Assembly: GCA_937924755.1 (NCBI GenBank)
Contig: CALEVZ010000049.1
Coordinates: 1-33,672 of the forward strand
Origin: an uncultured bacterium
GTDB taxonomy: Bacteria; Acidobacteriota; Thermoanaerobaculia; Thermoanaerobaculales; Thermoanaerobaculaceae
Direction of reading: 5' to 3'
Length of the DNA: 33,672 nucleotides
This document shows positions 25,841-33,634 of the stretch, piece by piece. A model generated the notes under the pieces. It had not been told where the DNA came from. It did no database searches and worked only from the letters and a program-made list of their open reading frames with translations. How positions within the stretch are numbered: the stretch's first letter is position 1; each line of letters starts with the position of its first letter. Both the position numbers and the translations under genes were made by a program.

Positions 25841-26125
25841 ATGAGCGCCATCGTTGTCGACCACCATCCGACCCCCGAGCTCCTCGAGCGCCTGGGGGTG
25901 CAGCGCTGGCCCATCTGGACCAAGGAAGTGTCTACCTTTCCCTGGACCTACGACGAGCAGGAGACCTGTTACATCCTGGCCGGTCGAGTCACGGTCACCC
26001 CCGACGGGGGAGAGCCGGTGACCGTCGGTGCCGGCGACCTGGTGACCTTTCCCGCCGGGATGTCTTGCACCTGGGAGGTGATTGAGCCCATCCGCAAGCA
26101 TTACCATTTCGGCCCGTTGCCTTAA
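25841..26125 (+). CDS. Small cupin protein (Cupin_3/EutQ-like)
   Basis: A 94-residue single-domain cupin. The core EQETCYILAGRVTVTPDGGEPVTVGAGDLVTFPAGMSCTWEV shows the family's two short beta motifs, and the TFPWTYDEQETCY stretch is characteristic of the Cupin_3/DUF861 group. The usual metal-binding His of larger cupins are largely absent from motif 1, so it may bind a small ligand without metal catalysis. GGAGGGAG precedes the ATG. The stop lies 25 bases before the antiporter start. The substrate is unknown. Confidence 0.85.
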   Translation: MSAIVVDHHPTPELLERLGVQRWPIWTKEVSTFPWTYDEQETCYILAGRVTVTPDGGEPVTVGAGDLVTFPAGMSCTWEVIEPIRKHYHFGPLP

Positions 26126-26150
26126 GACGAGGGGAACGAAAGCCGAGGGT

Positions 26151-28391
26151 ATGGAGGGCGCAACGGGGGGGCTGCTGACGGCGGCGGGCGTGGCGGTGGG
26201 TGCAGAAGCACGCGGCGCCGACCTCGCCCACGTGGTATTTCTGCAAACCACGCTGATACTGGTGCTGGCGGCCCTGCTGGGGTTCGTGGGCAGCAAGCTC
26301 AGGCAACCCCTCGTCGTGTCGTTCATTGCCGTGGGCATCCTGGCCGGTGCCGATGTCCTGAACCTGATTCGCGACCCCCTCTCCCTCAAGCTGCTGGCCG
26401 AGATCGGCATCAGCGTGCTGCTGTTCATCGTCGGCCTGAAGCTGGACCTCAACATGATCCGCACCATGGGTCGGGTGGCCCTGGCCACCGGGCTGGGGCA
26501 GGTGCTGTTCACCTCCCTGGGCGGATTCGTCATCGCCCGCCTGCTGGGCATGGGAGTCGTGGCGTCGGTTTATGTGGCAGTGGCGCTGACGTTTTCCAGC
26601 ACCATCATCATCGTCAAGCTGCTCTCCGACAAGCGCGAGGTGGACTCCCTGCACGGGCGCATCGCCATCGGTTTTCTGATCGTGCAGGACCTGGTGGTGG
26701 TGCTGGCCATGATCGCCCTGGCGGCCTTTGGCCGGGGCGGGGCTGAGGTGCCCCTGGGCCGCGAGCTCGCCCGGGTGCTGGCCGCCGGGGCGGCGTTCCT
26801 GGTGGGGGTTCTGGTGCTCATGCGCCGGGCCCTGCCGTGGCTCTTGCAGCAGCTGGCCCGCATCTCCGAACTTCTGGTGCTGTTTTCCGTGGCCTGGGCG
26901 GTGGGGCTCGCTGCCTTCGGGGAGTGGCTGGGCTTTTCCAAGGAGGTGGGGGCGTTTCTGGCCGGGGTGTCGATTGCCTCCACTCCCTTCCGGGACGCCA
27001 TCGGCGCCCGCCTTGTCAGTCTGCGTGATTTCCTGCTCCTCTTCTTCTTCATTCACCTGGGGGCGGGGCTGGATCTCGACCTACTGGGGGGGGCGGTGCT
27101 GCCAGCCGTGGTCTTTTCGGCCTTCGTGCTGATCGGCAACCCCTTGATCGTCATGGTCATCATGGGGATGATGGGGTACCGCAAGCGCACCGGCTTCCTG
27201 GCGGGCCTCACGGTGGCGCAGATTTCCGAGTTCTCCCTCATCCTCATGGGGCTAGGGGCGGCCCTCGGCCACGTGGACCAGGCCACCGTGGGCCTGGTCA
27301 CGCTGGTGGGCCTGATCACCATCGGTCTGTCCACCTACATGATCCTTTACTCGGGGCCGCTGTACCGGTTGCTGGCGCCGGCGCTGGGGATCTTTGAGCG
27401 CAAAATCCCGTATAGGGAAGAAACCCCGGAGGAGCAGGAAACCCTGCGGCTGCCCCGGGTGGACGTGCTCATTTTCGGGCTCGGTACCTACGGCAGCAGC
27501 ATCGCGCGGCGCCTGCGCCGGCGGGGGCAACAGGTGGTGGGGGTGGACTTCGATCCGCAGGTGCTGCGCTACTGGCGGGAGCAGGGGGTGCCGGTGCTGT
27601 ACGGCGACATGGAGGACCCGGACCTGTTGGAGCATCTCCCCATCCGCCACACCCGCTGGGTGCTCTCCGCCGTGCCCGACCGCAACGCCACCACCTCCCT
27701 GGTGAGCCTGCTGCGGGCCGCCCACTTTCCGGGCAAGCTGGCCCTCACCGCCCGCTCCGAGGCGGAGGCCGAGCACTACCGCGCCCTGGGCGCCGACCTG
27801 GTGCTGCGACCCTTTGCCGACGCCGCCGAGCAGGCGGTGGATGCCTTGAACGCCGCCATGCACCTGCTGCCCCCGGACAGCCACTGGCCCGCCTCGCTGC
27901 GGGAGGTGCGGCTGGAGCCGGGCTCGGTGTGGGCCGGTAAGTCCCTGGGGGAAATCCCCCTGCGCCGGGAGACGGGGGCCTCGGTGCTGGCGGTGAGCCG
28001 GGCCGGGACGACGTTTTTCGATCCCACCGCCGGTTTCGTTCTCTACCCCGGCGACCGGCTGGTACTGCTGGGGGAGCCGGAGAGCGTGGAGGCCGCCGTC
28101 GAGTTCATTACCCGCCGGGAAGTGGGGGCGCCCGACCCGGAGGAGCGCTTCACTATGGCCACCGTAGACATCCCCGAGCTCTGCAATCTGGCTGGGCGCA
28201 CCCTGGGGGAGCTGCGCTTCCGGCAGGACTTCGGGGTCAGCGTCATCGGCATCCAGCGGGGGGAGATCCGCCTGCAGGCCCCCAACGCCGGCACCCAACT
28301 GCAGGCCGGCGACCGCCTCATCGTGGTGGGGCGCCCCTACGACCTGGACGAGCTGCACGCCGCCATCCTCTCGGCCTGTTCCGTCGCCTAG
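26151..28391 (+). CDS. CPA2-family (Kef-type) cation:proton antiporter with RCK domains
   Basis: The 746-residue product has an N-terminal monovalent cation/proton exchanger domain of about 12 helices (about 25-410; SFIAVGILAGADVL, FIVGLKLDLNMI, ALTFSSTIIIVKLLSD and IAIGFLIVQDLVVVL motifs). A TrkA-N/RCK domain follows with nucleotide motif LIFGLGTYGSSIARRL (about 450-465), then two TrkA-C domains (about 585-660 and 670-746). It probably exports K+ or Na+ against protons, gated by NAD(H) or another ligand. The ATG at 26151 follows GAGGG at very short spacing; a longer in-frame start inside the cupin is unlikely. Confidence 0.9.
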   Translation: MEGATGGLLTAAGVAVGAEARGADLAHVVFLQTTLILVLAALLGFVGSKLRQPLVVSFIAVGILAGADVLNLIRDPLSLKLLAEIGISVLLFIVGLKLDLNMIRTMGRVALATGLGQVLFTSLGGFVIARLLGMGVVASVYVAVALTFSSTIIIVKLLSDKREVDSLHGRIAIGFLIVQDLVVVLAMIALAAFGRGGAEVPLGRELARVLAAGAAFLVGVLVLMRRALPWLLQQLARISELLVLFSVAWAVGLAAFGEWLGFSKEVGAFLAGVSIASTPFRDAIGARLVSLRDFLLLFFFIHLGAGLDLDLLGGAVLPAVVFSAFVLIGNPLIVMVIMGMMGYRKRTGFLAGLTVAQISEFSLILMGLGAALGHVDQATVGLVTLVGLITIGLSTYMILYSGPLYRLLAPALGIFERKIPYREETPEEQETLRLPRVDVLIFGLGTYGSSIARRLRRRGQQVVGVDFDPQVLRYWREQGVPVLYGDMEDPDLLEHLPIRHTRWVLSAVPDRNATTSLVSLLRAAHFPGKLALTARSEAEAEHYRALGADLVLRPFADAAEQAVDALNAAMHLLPPDSHWPASLREVRLEPGSVWAGKSLGEIPLRRETGASVLAVSRAGTTFFDPTAGFVLYPGDRLVLLGEPESVEAAVEFITRREVGAPDPEERFTMATVDIPELCNLAGRTLGELRFRQDFGVSVIGIQRGEIRLQAPNAGTQLQAGDRLIVVGRPYDLDELHAAILSACSVA

Positions 28392-28417: not shown

Positions 28418-28444
28418 ATATTACGATTCTTACAGGCGTCATAC
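28418..28444 (+). promoter_or_regulatory. Predicted NikR operator upstream of nikR
   Basis: ATATTAC at the left and TCATAC at the right, with the second half-site starting 21 bases after the first (27 bp in all), followed by GG. The E. coli consensus is GTATGA-N16-TCATAC; here the spacer is 15. The same arrangement recurs at 28910-28936. A TATATT (28417-28422) that could be a -10 overlaps the left half-site, and the ribosome binding site starts at the right edge, so binding would block nikR expression (autoregulation). Confidence 0.65.
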
Positions 28445-28453
28445 GGAGGGTTG

Positions 28454-28870
28454 GTGGGCGAGGTCGCGCGGTTGAGTTTTTCCTTAGAGCAGCCGCTTCT
28501 CGAGCGCCTGGAGGCGCTGCGGAGGGAAGCCGGCTACGCCAACCGCTCGGAGTTCTTGCGGGATCTGATCCGCGCCCGCTTGGTAGACCGCGCCTGGGAG
28601 CTCAACCAAGAGGCGGTGGGGACCATCACCCTGGTGTACGACCACCACGCCCGCGGCCTCAACGCCCGCCTCACCGCCCTGCAGCACGACCACCATCACG
28701 TCATCCTGGCCACCACTCACGTGCACCTGGATCATCACCACTGCGTGGAGGTGATTCTCCTGCGCGGCCGCGCCGCCCACATCCGCGCCATCGCCGATGG
28801 CCTGCGGCGCCACAAGGGGGTGCTGCACGGCGAGCTGTCCATGAGCTCCACGGGGAAGGAGCTGGGGTAG
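28454..28870 (+). CDS. nikR: Nickel-responsive regulator NikR
   Basis: A ribbon-helix-helix repressor activated by Ni(II). The 138-residue protein has an N-terminal ribbon-helix-helix (about 3-45, ARLSFSLEQPLLERLEAL, then GYANRSEFLRDLIR) and a C-terminal ACT-like metal domain. All four high-affinity nickel ligands align with E. coli His76, His87, His89 and Cys95: the His after LQ in LQHDHHH, both His of THVHLD, and the Cys of HHHCVE. The start is GTG 28454 (GGAGGG at 28445-28450); TTG 28451 is possible. It lies directly before the predicted nickel operon and has a predicted operator immediately upstream. Confidence 0.95.
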   Translation: MGEVARLSFSLEQPLLERLEALRREAGYANRSEFLRDLIRARLVDRAWELNQEAVGTITLVYDHHARGLNARLTALQHDHHHVILATTHVHLDHHHCVEVILLRGRAAHIRAIADGLRRHKGVLHGELSMSSTGKELG

Positions 28871-28909
28871 AGGATGTGGCGCAATGCTCCCGCGCCCGTC
28901 CGACAGCCG

Positions 28910-28936
28910 GTATTACCCCCTTTTTGGCTTTCATAC
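28910..28936 (+). promoter_or_regulatory. Predicted NikR operator upstream of the TonB-dependent receptor operon
   Basis: GTATTAC and TCATAC half-sites with a 15-base spacer between the six-base cores, followed by GG, exactly the geometry of 28418-28444. Left core at 28910-28915, right core at 28931-28936. It lies 62 bases before the receptor ATG (28999), where a promoter would be. Nickel-loaded NikR should repress all five genes downstream. Confidence 0.7.
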
Positions 28937-28998
28937 GGGCATGAAACCCGCCGCGGTCGCGCCGGCCACCCCGGAGCAAAAGAGAGGAGGCGTTGACG

Positions 28999-30999
28999 AT
29001 GGCAAGGAGGTGGAAAGAAGGCCCGCAGCGGCAGCCGTTCGGGTCGCGCCTGAAGGCTGTGCTTTACGCGTGTGCTGTGCTGGTAGGGGCAGGGACGGCC
29101 GCCGTAGCTCCGGCGACCGAGGGCGAGCCGCAGGCCGCCAAGGAGGAAGGAGTTCCCCCTGCCGCCCGCTTCGCCGAGGAGGTGCGGGTGGTGGCCCCGC
29201 CCATCCTGGAGGGGGACCAGGTGACCCCCTTTGCGACCGTTGTCACCACCGTGACGGCGCGGCAGGTGGAGGACCTGGGGGCCGGGGACCTGGCGGCGGC
29301 GCTGCGGCGGGTGCCGGGGGTCACCATCTCCCGGTACAACCTGGTGGGGGCCTACGGCGGCGGAGACGGGGGGGCCGTGTACATCCGCGGGCACGGGTCG
29401 GGTCGGCCGGGGGCAGAGATCGCCACCCTGGTGGACGGCATCCCCCGTTTCGTGGGGGTGTGGACCCATCCGTTGCTGGACACCCTGAGCACCGACGCTG
29501 CCGCCGGCATCGAGGTGTTCAAGTCTGCTCAGCCGGTGCTGTTGGGCAGCATGGCTTTCGCCGGGGTGAACCTGCTGCCCAAGCGGGTGGAGCGGGAGGG
29601 CATGAGTTCGCGACTGGTCGCAACCTTCGGGGAGCACGCCACCAGGGTGGGCCTGGTGGAGCACGGGGCGCGGCTGGGGGCGTGGGACTACTACCTGCAG
29701 GTCGGCGAGCGGCGCAGCGACGGCCACCGCCCCGCCGCCGGCGGCCGGGTTCGCTCCGCCTACGGCCGACTTGGGTACCAGCCGAGCGAGGGGTGGAGCG
29801 TCTCCCTGCAGTGGCATGGAGCCGACGCCTGGGCGGATGACCCCGGGCCAGTGGGGGGGGCGGTGCGCGGGGTGGTGCCTCGCTTTTCCGTCCAGGACGC
29901 CCTGGTCATCGCCACTCTGGGGCACCGGCACTCCGCCGGTGGGGGGACCTTGAAACTCTACCGCCATGGAGGGGACATCGACTGGCGGCAGTGGGATGGC
30001 GGGCAGCGGCACACCTTTACCACAGTGACCGACTTCGCCGCCTACGGGGTGCGCCTGCGGGAGGAGTTCCAGCTGCCCGGCCGCACCCTCCTGACCCTGG
30101 GCCTCGACCACGACCGCTACGGCGGCTCCACGGTGGAGCGGCGGCCCACCACGTCCTTGGAATTCTCCCGCCTCCTGCTGCGCACCACCGCCGGCTACGC
30201 CATGGCCGCCCGTAGCTTCGGGTCGCGGGTGGAGGTCACCCCCTCCCTGGGGGTGCGGTACATGGATACGGCGGACTTCGGCGGTCGGTGGGGCGGCGAG
30301 GCGGGGGTGGTGCTGCGCGGCGGCGCCTCCGAGGTGCACGCCAAGGTGGCCCGCGCCGTGAACCTGCCGGGGGTGTACACGGCGGTGATGTTCTCCCGCT
30401 GGGGGCGGGGCGAGAGCTGGCGCGACCTCGAGCCCGAGGTGCTGCGCCACGCCGAGGTGGGGGTGGGCCAGCGGCTGGGGGAGCGCCTGCGGCTCCAGCT
30501 GGTGGCCTTCTCCGACCGGGTGAGGGACGCTCTGCGCTTCGTCCCGCCCCCGCCGCCCCCGCCGGCCTTCGCCAATATCGGTTCCTACACGGTGCGCGGG
30601 GTGGAGGCCTCGGTATCGGTGAGGGCCGGGGAGCGGGCGGCCTTCTTCGGCGGGGCCACCTACCTGGACCCGGATCCGGTGGAGGTGCCCAACGCCCCCC
30701 AATGGGCCCTGGTGGGCGGCGCCTCGTGGGTGCCCCGGGAGGAGCTTTCGGTCCATCTGGACGCCCAGTGGGTGGACTCCCAGTACGTGCTCAACCCCCG
30801 GTACGCCACCCGCCAGGCGGCCATCGGCAGCTACGCTCTGGTCAACCTCAAGGTTTCGTGGATCTTCGCGCGCGGGTCGTGGGGGCGTCTGGAGCTTTTC
30901 CTCGCCGGGGAGAACCTGGCCGATGCCGACTATCAGTACCGCCCCGGCTACCCGGCCCCGGGCCGGGTGGTGACGGGGGGGCTGGAGGTGCGCTTCTGA
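28999..30999 (+). CDS. TonB-dependent outer-membrane receptor, probably for nickel or a nickel chelate
   Basis: The 666-residue product has a signal sequence (about 1-40), a possible TonB box EEVRVVAPP (about 60), a plug domain (about 70-190; LAAALRRVPGVTISRYN, VYIRGHGSGRPGAEIATLVDGIPR) and a 22-strand-type beta-barrel ending in GGLEVRF with terminal Phe. NikR-linked receptors in other bacteria, such as FrpB4 of Helicobacter, import nickel; the operator here supports the same substrate, though cobalt or a vitamin cannot be excluded. A run of seven prolines (about 514-520) lies in a predicted loop. GAGGAGG precedes the ATG by 8 bases. It is the first gene of the five-gene operon. Confidence 0.9.
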   Translation: MARRWKEGPQRQPFGSRLKAVLYACAVLVGAGTAAVAPATEGEPQAAKEEGVPPAARFAEEVRVVAPPILEGDQVTPFATVVTTVTARQVEDLGAGDLAAALRRVPGVTISRYNLVGAYGGGDGGAVYIRGHGSGRPGAEIATLVDGIPRFVGVWTHPLLDTLSTDAAAGIEVFKSAQPVLLGSMAFAGVNLLPKRVEREGMSSRLVATFGEHATRVGLVEHGARLGAWDYYLQVGERRSDGHRPAAGGRVRSAYGRLGYQPSEGWSVSLQWHGADAWADDPGPVGGAVRGVVPRFSVQDALVIATLGHRHSAGGGTLKLYRHGGDIDWRQWDGGQRHTFTTVTDFAAYGVRLREEFQLPGRTLLTLGLDHDRYGGSTVERRPTTSLEFSRLLLRTTAGYAMAARSFGSRVEVTPSLGVRYMDTADFGGRWGGEAGVVLRGGASEVHAKVARAVNLPGVYTAVMFSRWGRGESWRDLEPEVLRHAEVGVGQRLGERLRLQLVAFSDRVRDALRFVPPPPPPPAFANIGSYTVRGVEASVSVRAGERAAFFGGATYLDPDPVEVPNAPQWALVGGASWVPREELSVHLDAQWVDSQYVLNPRYATRQAAIGSYALVNLKVSWIFARGSWGRLELFLAGENLADADYQYRPGYPAPGRVVTGGLEVRF

Positions 31000-31027
31000 G
31001 GCCAGCGGAAGGCGGCCCGAGGTGGGC

Positions 31028-31555
31028 ATGAGCGGGCGGCTTTCCCCCCGCGAGCTGGCCCTGGGCGGGGTCCTGGGGGCCGCCGCCCTGCTGCTGCCGG
31101 TGCTCTTTCATCTCGTCCGGCTGGGGCACGTCTTCATGCCCATGTACCTGCCCTTGGTCACCCTGGCGTTCCTGGTGCGTCCGCTGCCGGCGGTGTTGAC
31201 CGCCTTGCTGGTACCGCTGCTCTCCGCGGCGGCCACCGGGATGCCGCCCCTTTATCCCCCGGTGGCAGTGGTGATGGCGGTGGAGCTGGCGGTGATGGCC
31301 GCCCTCATTGCCACCGTGGTGGGGCGGTGGCCGGCGGCCAACCCGTGGCTGCTGCTGGCCGCGGCGCTGGCTCTGGGGCGGGTACTGCACGTGGCGGCGG
31401 TGTACGGTCTCGCCCTGGTCATGGAGCTGCCCGCCGCCTTCCTGGCGGGGGTCTCATTCCTCGCCGGGTGGCCGGGGGTTCTCCTGATGCTGGCGGTGGT
31501 GCCGCCGGTGGTGCGGGTTGTTCGCACGAGCGCCACCGGCCGGGAGTGGGCGTGA
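31028..31555 (+). CDS. ECF transporter S-component, not of the CbiM/NikM type
   Basis: The 175-residue product has about six transmembrane helices and resembles general ECF S-components: a first helix with ALGGVLGAAALLLPVLFHL, then FMPMYLPLV (36-44), a TGMPPLYPP signature (70-78) and Glu86. CbiM/NikM nickel or cobalt S-components have a conserved N-terminal Met-His that binds the metal; this protein lacks it (N-terminus MSGRLS) and no CbiN is present. It should therefore bind a different ligand or bind metal in another way. His28, His34, Met37, Met39 and His121 are candidate ligands. GTG 31022 is an alternative start. Its stop overlaps the methyltransferase start. Confidence 0.82.
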   Translation: MSGRLSPRELALGGVLGAAALLLPVLFHLVRLGHVFMPMYLPLVTLAFLVRPLPAVLTALLVPLLSAAATGMPPLYPPVAVVMAVELAVMAALIATVVGRWPAANPWLLLAAALALGRVLHVAAVYGLALVMELPAAFLAGVSFLAGWPGVLLMLAVVPPVVRVVRTSATGREWA

Positions 31556-32163
31556 TGGATGCCGGTAGGGTAGCTTTTTTCGACGCCATTGCCCCCTGTT
31601 GGGACGGCTGGCACGACCTGCCGCGGCTGGCGGCGCAGCTGGAGGCGGGCCTGGCGGAGCTGGGGGTGGGCGGAGAGGAGGCGGTGCTCGACCTCGGTTG
31701 CGGCACCGGTAACCTCACCGCCGCTCTGCTCGCCCGGCTGTCACCCGCCGGGAGGGTGGTGGCGGTGGACATCGCCCCCCGCATGGTGGCCCTGGCCCGC
31801 GCCAAGGTGGGTGACGACCGGGTGCGCTGGTGGGTGGCGGCGGCGGAGGCGTTGCCGTTGCCTCAGGCGTGCGTGGACCGCGTTGTCGCCCTCGCCGTGT
31901 GGCCCCACCTCGGCGACAGGGAGGGGGCAGCGGCCGAACTCCTGCGAGTGCTGCGGCCGGGCGGGGCGGTGCACATCTGGCACCTGATGGCCCGGGAGGA
32001 GGTTAACAGGATTCACGGCAGCGCCGACGGCCCCATCCGCGGGGACCTGCTGCCCCCCGCGGCGGAAACCGCCGCCCTGCTGGCCCGCGCCGGCTTTGCG
32101 GTGCAGCACGTGGAGGACGGGGAGCGGTACCTGGTCACCGCCCGAGCGGGGGAGGGGCGGTGA
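31555..32163 (+). CDS. Class I SAM-dependent methyltransferase embedded in the ECF operon
   Basis: The 202-residue product has the SAM-binding motif VLDLGCGTGN (44-53), the acidic loop VVAVDIAP (68-75), and a post-motif LRVLRPGGAVHIWHL. The fold resembles UbiE/menaquinone-type methyltransferases, but the substrate is not indicated. After it comes the stretch REEVNRIHGS (about 147-156) and then DLLPP, which I take as family character. The ATG shares a base with the S-component stop (TGATG); GTG 31552 is possible. The stop overlaps the cbiQ-like GTG. Coupling on both sides makes it part of the transporter unit. No methyl acceptor is known. Confidence 0.85.
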   Translation: MDAGRVAFFDAIAPCWDGWHDLPRLAAQLEAGLAELGVGGEEAVLDLGCGTGNLTAALLARLSPAGRVVAVDIAPRMVALARAKVGDDRVRWWVAAAEALPLPQACVDRVVALAVWPHLGDREGAAAELLRVLRPGGAVHIWHLMAREEVNRIHGSADGPIRGDLLPPAAETAALLARAGFAVQHVEDGERYLVTARAGEGR

Positions 32164-32921
32164 GTTCCCCCTTCCGGCTGCCCCACCGGTTGGCTGCTTT
32201 CTGGCGGAAGCTGTGGGGGTGTGGGCGAGGACCGGCGAGGCAGCTCTCGCCCCAAGCTCGGCTGGCCAGCGGGGGGATGGCGCTGGCCGCCTGCCTGCTG
32301 GCCCCTCCCTCGGCGGCGGGCGTGGGGATCGCGGCGACGGCCGCGGCGGGGTGGCTGGCTGCCTGCGGCCCTCCCGTGAAGGTGCTGGCGCTGCCCCTGG
32401 CGGGGGCGGTGGCGGGGCTGCTGCCGGCGGTAGTGCTGGCCGGGGCGGGCGTGGGGTGGGGGGAGGGGGTGGCGCCTGCCCTGGGGGTGGCGGTGGCGCT
32501 GGCGCTGCGGGGGGCTGCCGCGGCGGTGGCGGCGATGGCTACGGCGGCCACGCTGACCCCGGCGGAGCTGGCGGCTGGGCTCGCGGCCCTTGGGGTGCCG
32601 CGGCCGGTGGCGGCCATCCTTCTGCAGATCCTCCATCAGACGGGGGTGCTGTTGGAGGAGGTGGGGCGGATCGGGACGGCGCTGGCGGTGCGTGGCGGTG
32701 GCCGGGGCGGGGTGCGCCTAGCGGCGGCCCTGCCGGGGGTGTGGCTGCCGCGCCTGGTGGGGCGGGGGGAGCGGGTAGCGGTGGCCATGGAGGTGCGCGG
32801 CGTTGGCGCGGCGGAGCTGACGAGCGGTCGGCGATCCCTGTGGCGGCTCACGGACCCCCTGGCCCTCCTGCCCCTGGCCGTCCTCACCGCCCTCACCGCC
32901 GCCCTGCGGTGGACGGGATGA
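32160..32921 (+). CDS. ECF transporter T-component (CbiQ-like)
   Basis: The 253-residue integral membrane coupling protein has several Ala/Gly-rich helices and the two cytoplasmic motifs that contact the ATPases, here in the form ALAVRGG (about 177-183) and AMEVRGV (about 209-215), corresponding to the Ala-Arg-Gly signatures of the T-component family. The GTG at 32160 overlaps the methyltransferase stop by 4 bases; its own stop overlaps the ATPase ATG. The dedicated T and A genes mark this as a group I ECF transporter rather than one sharing a common energy module. Confidence 0.85.
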   Translation: MSSPFRLPHRLAAFWRKLWGCGRGPARQLSPQARLASGGMALAACLLAPPSAAGVGIAATAAAGWLAACGPPVKVLALPLAGAVAGLLPAVVLAGAGVGWGEGVAPALGVAVALALRGAAAAVAAMATAATLTPAELAAGLAALGVPRPVAAILLQILHQTGVLLEEVGRIGTALAVRGGGRGGVRLAAALPGVWLPRLVGRGERVAVAMEVRGVGAAELTSGRRSLWRLTDPLALLPLAVLTALTAALRWTG

Positions 32922-33634
32922 CCCCGGTGCCCGCTCTGGAGCTGGGGGCCGTCACCGTGCGTTGGCTTTCCCGCGCCGCGCCAGTGCTGCGCGGGGTGAG
33001 CTTCGCCCTGGGGCCCGGCGAGCGGGCCGCGTTGCTGGGTCTGAACGGCTCCGGCAAGACCAGCCTGCTGCTGGCGGCGGTGGGGGTGGCACCCTTCGAG
33101 GGCACGATCCGGGTGGCCGGCATCGCGGTGGGGCCGGACACGGTGGAGGAGGTGCGGCGGCGGGTGGGGTTTCTCTTCAACCCGCCGGAAGACCAGCTGC
33201 TACTGCCCCAGGCGGTGGACGACGTCGCCCTTGCCCTGCGGCGGCGGGGAGATTCGCCCCGGGAGGCGAGGCGCCGGGCAGCGCAGCTGCTGGTGGAGCT
33301 GGGCCTCGCCGAGGTGAATGGGCAGCCGCTGGCCGAGCTATCCCACGGGCAGAAGCGGCGGGTGGCCCTGGCCGGGGCCCTGGTGGCCGGGCCGTCGCTG
33401 CTCCTGTTGGATGAGCCCTCCGCCGGTTTAGATCCCCCCGGGCGTCGGCACCTCGCCCACCTGCTAAGAGGGCTGCCGGCGGCCATGCTCATCGCCACCC
33501 ATGACCTGGAGTTCGCCACTTGGGTGTGCCGGCGATTCCTGCTGCTGCGGGACGGGATCCTGGCCCACGACGGTGCCGACCTCGATCCGGTGCTATCGGG
33601 CTGGGGAGAAGGCCCGCCGCCGGGGACAGATTGA
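32918..33634 (+). CDS. ECF transporter ATPase (CbiO-like)
   Basis: The 238-residue ABC ATPase has Walker A GLNGSGKTS (41-49), a Q-loop FNPPEDQLL (about 88), signature LSHGQKRR (about 143), Walker B LLLLDEPSAGLD (about 163) and the H-loop ATHD (about 197). Only one ATPase gene is present, so it probably forms a homodimer. The ATG overlaps the T-component stop (ATGA). It completes the five-gene operon; 38 bases remain to the end of the window with no recognised feature. Confidence 0.93.
   Translation: MTPVPALELGAVTVRWLSRAAPVLRGVSFALGPGERAALLGLNGSGKTSLLLAAVGVAPFEGTIRVAGIAVGPDTVEEVRRRVGFLFNPPEDQLLLPQAVDDVALALRRRGDSPREARRRAAQLLVELGLAEVNGQPLAELSHGQKRRVALAGALVAGPSLLLLDEPSAGLDPPGRRHLAHLLRGLPAAMLIATHDLEFATWVCRRFLLLRDGILAHDGADLDPVLSGWGEGPPPGTD

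Follow-up and report, generated by a model that had tools for sequence, protein, structure and literature searches.

A NikR-linked operon with an unusual ECF transporter and a methyltransferase, proposed as a widespread route for the uptake of nickel, probably as a complex

A comprehensive survey of nickel transporters names NikMNQO, NikKMLQO, NikABCDE, NiCoT, UreH, and HupE/UreJ (PMC2667541). The operon described here is located on contig CALEVZ010000049.1 of an uncultured bacterium (Acidobacteriota, Thermoanaerobaculaceae) and consists, following the gene for the nickel-responsive repressor NikR, of genes for a TonB-dependent receptor, an energy-coupling factor (ECF) S-component, a class I methyltransferase, a CbiQ-like T-component, and a CbiO-like ATPase. 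NikMNQO and NikKMLQO (PMC545781, PMC2667541) resemble it in being ECF systems with CbiQ/CbiO-type T-components and ATPases, in having operators of the GTGTTAC-N13-GTAACAC type, and in having nikR alongside. However, the S-component of our operon (hereafter S) is not of the CbiM/NikM type, no NikN, NikK, or NikL is encoded between the receptor gene and the contig end, and a methyltransferase and a TonB receptor are added. An outer-membrane step under NikR is shared with Helicobacter FrpB4, FecA3, and NikH, which are NikR-controlled TonB-dependent nickel receptors for which a nickelophore is suspected, but the account of these receptors (PMC3856676) does not place their genes together with those of an ECF transporter and a methyltransferase in a single operon. 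The vitamin S-components (RibU, ThiT, FolT, BioY, and PanT) share the six-helix S fold, whereas our operon has dedicated T-component and ATPase genes and a nickel regulator in place of vitamin control. Searches of the open literature, PMC2667541, PMC545781, PMC11247825, and PMC3856676 included, turned up no mention of an S-component/methyltransferase pair under NikR (subscription journals and preprints lie outside this scope). We suggest that the operon represents a widespread and apparently undescribed route of nickel uptake, probably in the form of a nickel complex.

The window analysed is the entire contig (C49; 33,672 bp), which is part of a 3.35-Mb draft genome that is 97% complete. An earlier note on this DNA, made without database searches, had placed the six genes here, and all of them are present on the plus strand (Table 1). 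The same note had described start-to-stop overlaps among the last four genes, and these measure 1 nt (S/methyltransferase), 4 nt (methyltransferase/T-component), and 4 nt (T-component/ATPase), while a gap of 22 nt separates the receptor gene from the S gene. The contig ends only 38 bases past the ATPase gene, so an additional gene could lie there. The combination of an S-component fold with a CbiQ-type T-component and an ATPase in one operon, without a gene for a periplasmic binding protein, is that of an ECF transporter.

Table 1. Positions of the operon's genes and NikR operators in the window, with the evidence for each.
Feature	Position	Strand	Evidence
NikR operator ATATTAC-N13-GTCATAC, 5' of nikR	28418..28444	+	2 mismatches to GTRTTAC-N13-GTAAYAC
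nikR, nickel-responsive repressor	28454..28870	+	NikR_C, PRK04460, four ligands
NikR operator GTATTAC-N13-TTCATAC, 5' of receptor gene and operon	28910..28936	+	2 mismatches to GTRTTAC-N13-GTAAYAC
TonB-dependent outer-membrane receptor	28999..30999	+	Plug 2.5e-17; TonB_dep_Rec_b-barrel 2.5e-20; ATG 28999, TTG 28993 possible
ECF S-component, family apart from CbiM/NikM	31022..31555	+	AlphaFold2 fold match; ATG 31028 possible
Class I SAM-dependent methyltransferase	31555..32163	+	Methyltransf_11 1.6e-22
ECF T-component (CbiQ-like)	32160..32921	+	CbiQ PF02361 4.9e-16
ECF ATPase (CbiO-like)	32918..33634	+	ABC_tran 4.6e-26; best NCBIfam match cbiO (TIGR01166) 6e-41

The nikR gene could start at TTG 28451 or at GTG 28454, the latter being better spaced from a GGAGG. 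Its product matches NikR_C (PF08753, E = 2e-30, 105 bits against a cut-off of 22), the ribbon-helix-helix domain (PF01402, 5.4e-09), and the NCBIfam model PRK04460 (162 bits against a cut-off of 105). The nickel ligands H76, H87, H89, and C95 can all be read directly in HDHHHVILATTHVHLDHHHC, which bears out the note's description of a complete NikR with four nickel ligands. Each of the two intergenic regions, before nikR and before the receptor gene, contains one 27-bp imperfect palindrome of the published form of a NikR operator, as given in PMC545781. The NikR signals reported there are GTGTTAC-N13/14-GTAACAC for delta-proteobacteria and GTATGAT-N13/14-ATCATAC for enterobacteria; the left half of the window operators is like the former and the right half is close to the latter. 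At up to two mismatches to GTRTTAC-N13-GTAAYAC these are the only two sites in the window, compared with 0.00 in shuffles of the window, and the whole genome contains just three such sites, including these two. A list of sites with up to three mismatches was at chance level in this genome (50 sites versus 49 in the control) and was not used. Together, the repressor and operator sequences make nickel control of the operon through NikR well supported. One could suppose that the transporter in fact imports cobalt or some other divalent metal and that NikR is a sensor of loose specificity, given that the T-component and ATPase are closest to CbiQ and CbiO. Similarity to CbiQ/CbiO is common to ECF modules generally, however, and NikR has its full set of nickel ligands and the operators are of the NikR type, which makes this explanation very improbable.

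To see whether the arrangement forms a system, we searched for relatives of S in the genomes of the phylum and in 85,000 species genomes. The latter search returned 132 matches, from which 80 loci were kept, nearly all of them from metagenome-assembled genomes; a collection of viral contigs contained no relative of the protein. The loci belong to Acidobacteria (including L080 from Thermoanaerobaculales and L103 from Thermoanaerobaculia), Aminicenantes, Myxococcota, Spirochaetes, Verrucomicrobia, Kiritimatiellae, Lentisphaerae, Planctomycetes, Fibrobacter, Gemmatimonadetes, Ignavibacteriae, Bacteroidota, Raymondbacteria, Sumerlaeota, and others; the module recurs in about ten bacterial phyla. 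The gene set is a conserved module, and the order S, methyltransferase, T-component, ATPase is rigid across loci. The methyltransferase gene is directly 3' of the S gene in 71 of the 77 loci where the sequence extends far enough, and the gene directly 5' of S encodes a receptor in 50 of the 73 loci with enough flank. S and the methyltransferase are joined in one open frame in at least three lineages (L035, Acidobacteria; L061, Kiritimatiellae; L065, Planctomycetes), through linkers of 2 to 11 residues, and likewise share a single frame in L015 and L016. The positively charged C-terminus of S, considered with the six-helix architecture of S-components, suggests that the fused methyltransferase would be on the cytoplasmic side.

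Pairwise distances of S correlate with those of the methyltransferase (0.93) as tightly as with those of the T-component (0.89) and the ATPase (0.90), whereas the correlation with the module is 0.47 for the receptor and 0.13 for NikR. Judged by this co-variation, the methyltransferase belongs to the module, and the receptor and the regulator have been exchanged. We considered the receptor as a defining part of the system and rejected it, as two receptor score classes accompany the same S/methyltransferase module and receptor distances correlate at no more than the 0.47 given above.

Operators were sought in the 80 loci using the half sites GTRTKAC and GTMAYAC at spacings of 8 to 20. At spacing 13 there were ten perfect sites and nine with one mismatch, compared with no perfect site and at most two one-mismatch sites at any other spacing; enrichment is thus confined to 13. 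Perfect or one-mismatch operators are present in about 18 of the 80 loci. They mark the beginning of the receptor-S operon or precede nikR, and they occur at the operon start even where nikR is located elsewhere in the genome (e.g., L122 and L124). We also asked whether S/methyltransferase pairs consistently adjoin non-metal regulators or vitamin genes, which would have spoken against the nickel link proposed in the earlier note. They do not: nikR is in the available flanking sequence of 27 of 82 loci, and neither a biosynthetic gene nor a vitamin gene recurs in the neighbourhoods of the related loci, the only recurring gene being one for a lipoprotein in loci of the Myxococcota type.

The link to nickel also holds at the level of whole genomes. 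In a sample of 396 Acidobacteriota genomes, NikR is encoded in 84, among them all 18 genomes with a strong S match (E < 1e-30; Fisher p = 1.6e-13, not allowing for shared ancestry) and none of the seven with only weak matches. In about ten of the 18, nikR is within a few kb of the S gene. Genomes with both NikR and S rarely encode CbiM/NikM (2 of 18, versus 30 of 66 genomes with NikR but not S; p = 0.006), and NicO is nearly absent among 20 genomes with S. As for potential uses of the metal, our genome encodes a full-length [NiFe]-hydrogenase large subunit, and six other genomes of the group encode proteins of the CO-dehydrogenase/prismane family. The earlier note had rested its nickel link on the regulator and the operators, and both the published-type operators at operon starts and the co-occurrence of NikR with strong S matches support it. 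We consider nickel very likely to be the cargo.

No Pfam family matches the S protein above threshold (only ECF_trnsprt below it, E = 0.58), and its profile has no match at E <= 1 among the sequences of solved structures. Sequence searches thus fail to give the S-component assignment made in the note, but the AlphaFold2 model (predicted local distance difference test score, pLDDT, 92.8) does match ECF S-components, the best being TmRibU with Z 16.7 over 158 residues at 13% identity. NikM was not among the structural matches, which is uninformative about the NikM fold. PF01891 (CbiM/NikM), whose S-components have an N-terminal Met-His, does not match the protein, and its N-terminus is MGMSGRLS, compared with MHVAEG in the CbiM of the same genome. 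On its modelled fold and its partners, S is an ECF component with a vitamin-type fold and not a CbiM/NikM protein; together with its absence from the transporter survey (PMC2667541), this agrees with the note's view of the transporter as atypical. Across 80 homologues 18 residues are invariant, including R120. A solitary S-like subfamily (L031:1462-2067 and L034:1447-2010), with the motifs LLPMHWP and PSMTxELAAYG, has no T-component, ATPase, methyltransferase, or NikR nearby and shares H30, M41, S68, M85, E88, and R120 with the nickel-linked family.

The fold of S, nearest to vitamin S-components, is also what might be expected if the cargo were an organic cofactor or precursor, such as a corrinoid or another tetrapyrrole, required under nickel scarcity and salvaged by the methyltransferase, with NikR reflecting demand. 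The receptor is weakly BtuB-like (TIGR01779, 3.4e-13), and the predicted targets of NikR repression include, besides transporters, a nickel-free isozyme (hydAB of Desulfovibrio desulfuricans, PMC545781). Yet an Rfam scan of the window found no B12 or other riboswitch, nor any other RNA, and vitamin genes do not recur among the neighbours. Furthermore, NikR is encoded in every sampled genome with a strong S match, operators occur in many phyla, and genomes with the module less often have NikM-type importers. We regard a cofactor as an unlikely cargo.

Nickel as the cargo probably travels as a chelate, and both the TonB receptor and the invariant R120 of S favour an anionic chelate over the bare ion. 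The methyltransferase has the glycine-rich motif I (DLGCGTG) and the Rossmann-like fold of class I enzymes that depend on S-adenosylmethionine (SAM), and its AlphaFold2 model (pLDDT 97.5) has 1450 matches in the PDB at E <= 0.001. Its best NCBIfam match is the DVU_1556 family (72 bits, 3.4e-20), of which it is not a member, the family cut-off being 155. F9, W16, H118, H143, and H154 are invariant in 72 homologues and D164 is present in 70 of the 72. The loop following strand 4 holds H118, and several solved relatives likewise have a histidine there, whereas alignments to solved relatives show no equivalent of H143, with which strand 5 ends, or of H154 in the helix that follows. CysG and BelI are class I methyltransferases that carry out carboxyl O-methylation, with a divalent metal bound by His122-His123-Asp191 in CysG (PMC11408123). 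They share the fold with the window enzyme but are natural-product enzymes that use Ca2+ and are unlinked to transport. By analogy, H118, H143, and H154 may form a CysG-like metal site. Methylation of a metal-bound carboxylate in CysG and BelI, and the invariant histidines, lead us to propose that the window enzyme might methylate a metal-binding group of the incoming chelator.

On balance, we favour a NikR-repressed importer that spans both membranes and takes up a nickel complex, with a methyltransferase of its own on the cytoplasmic side. A shortage of nickel in the cytoplasm would cause NikR to leave both operators and the operon to be expressed, while nickel-loaded NikR would repress it. 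The TonB-driven receptor would bring the chelate across the outer membrane, S would capture it in the periplasm, and the T-component and ATPase would carry it inward through a standard ECF transport cycle. On the cytoplasmic side of S, the methyltransferase would modify the arriving ligand, although that it acts on the imported ligand at all is an even call. Its likeliest role would be methylation of a nickel-binding group, which could lower the affinity of the chelator and make Ni(II) available to [NiFe]-hydrogenase and other enzymes, and the spent, methylated ligand would be trapped and could not go back. Ni(II), unlike siderophore iron, is not readily released by reduction, so a chemical change of the ligand would be a sensible alternative. 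Release of nickel in this way, by an enzyme that docks onto S or is joined to it, is the least supported step and is put forward tentatively.

Alternatively, free Ni2+ or any weak complex may be imported, and the methyltransferase may leave the incoming ligand untouched, serving instead to make or complete a nickelophore for export or to protect the cell. Metallophore pathways frequently adjoin their own uptake genes, and the enzyme is of a general UbiE/phosphoethanolamine type, both of which would suit this explanation. However, no further biosynthetic gene recurs in the neighbourhoods, the S-methyltransferase fusions put the enzyme at the entry point, and the TonB receptor suggests a cargo larger or scarcer than the hydrated ion. 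A role in making an exported nickelophore or in protection therefore seems rather unlikely.

Several observations weigh against import of a nickel complex with methylation of its ligand. The near absence of correlation between NikR and module distances (r = 0.13) makes repeated recruitment of the regulator probable, and the test of joint NikR and S presence (p = 1.6e-13) ignores the shared ancestry of the genomes. The methyltransferase gene is not beside the S gene in L038, L045, L057, L069, and L105, so the enzyme is not strictly needed, and in L042:2826-8027 about 5 kb separates the two, the sole such interruption seen. H30, M41, and M85 of S, considered as nickel ligands, were dropped because they are also present in the solitary L031/L034 relatives, which lack nearby NikR and ECF partners, and so do not point to nickel. 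Finally, our genome, one of the two CbiM-positive exceptions, contains a separate CbiM/NikL-type ECF system without a NikR operator. This second system (L115; G000:C1:2383-5028) consists of a CbiM, a NikL-like gene, a T-component, and an ATPase, and is possibly a cobalt importer or an unregulated nickel importer.

If the proposed import of a nickel complex is correct, the module represents a new nickel importer family spread over many poorly cultured phyla, and would explain the supply of nickel to hydrogenases and other nickel enzymes in NikR-bearing Acidobacteriota that lack CbiM/NikM or NicO. Release of Ni(II) by methylation, if it takes place, would be the counterpart of the reduction or ligand hydrolysis that acts on ferric siderophores. 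The module bears on whether bacteria use nickelophores and on the form in which nickel crosses the outer membrane, questions raised in PMC3856676, as one operon offers a receptor, an inner-membrane binder, and a candidate chelator-modifying enzyme. Both S and the natural S-methyltransferase fusions could be expressed for direct identification of the ligand.

Some further features of the window and of related loci were observed. Directly upstream of nikR, on the same strand, the window encodes a KefB/YbaL-like cation/proton antiporter with TrkA domains (26082-28391), and nothing indicates that it belongs to the nickel operon. L038, from Phycisphaerae, has no methyltransferase gene beside the S gene, yet nikR is nearby. 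At L007:11588-12877, the T-component and ATPase are joined in a single frame. Loci of the Myxococcota type (L047:1786-2565, L073:5104-6048, and about a dozen similar ones) contain a short lipoprotein gene between the operator and the receptor gene, for which there is no space in the window; the lipoprotein may work with the receptor at the cell surface.

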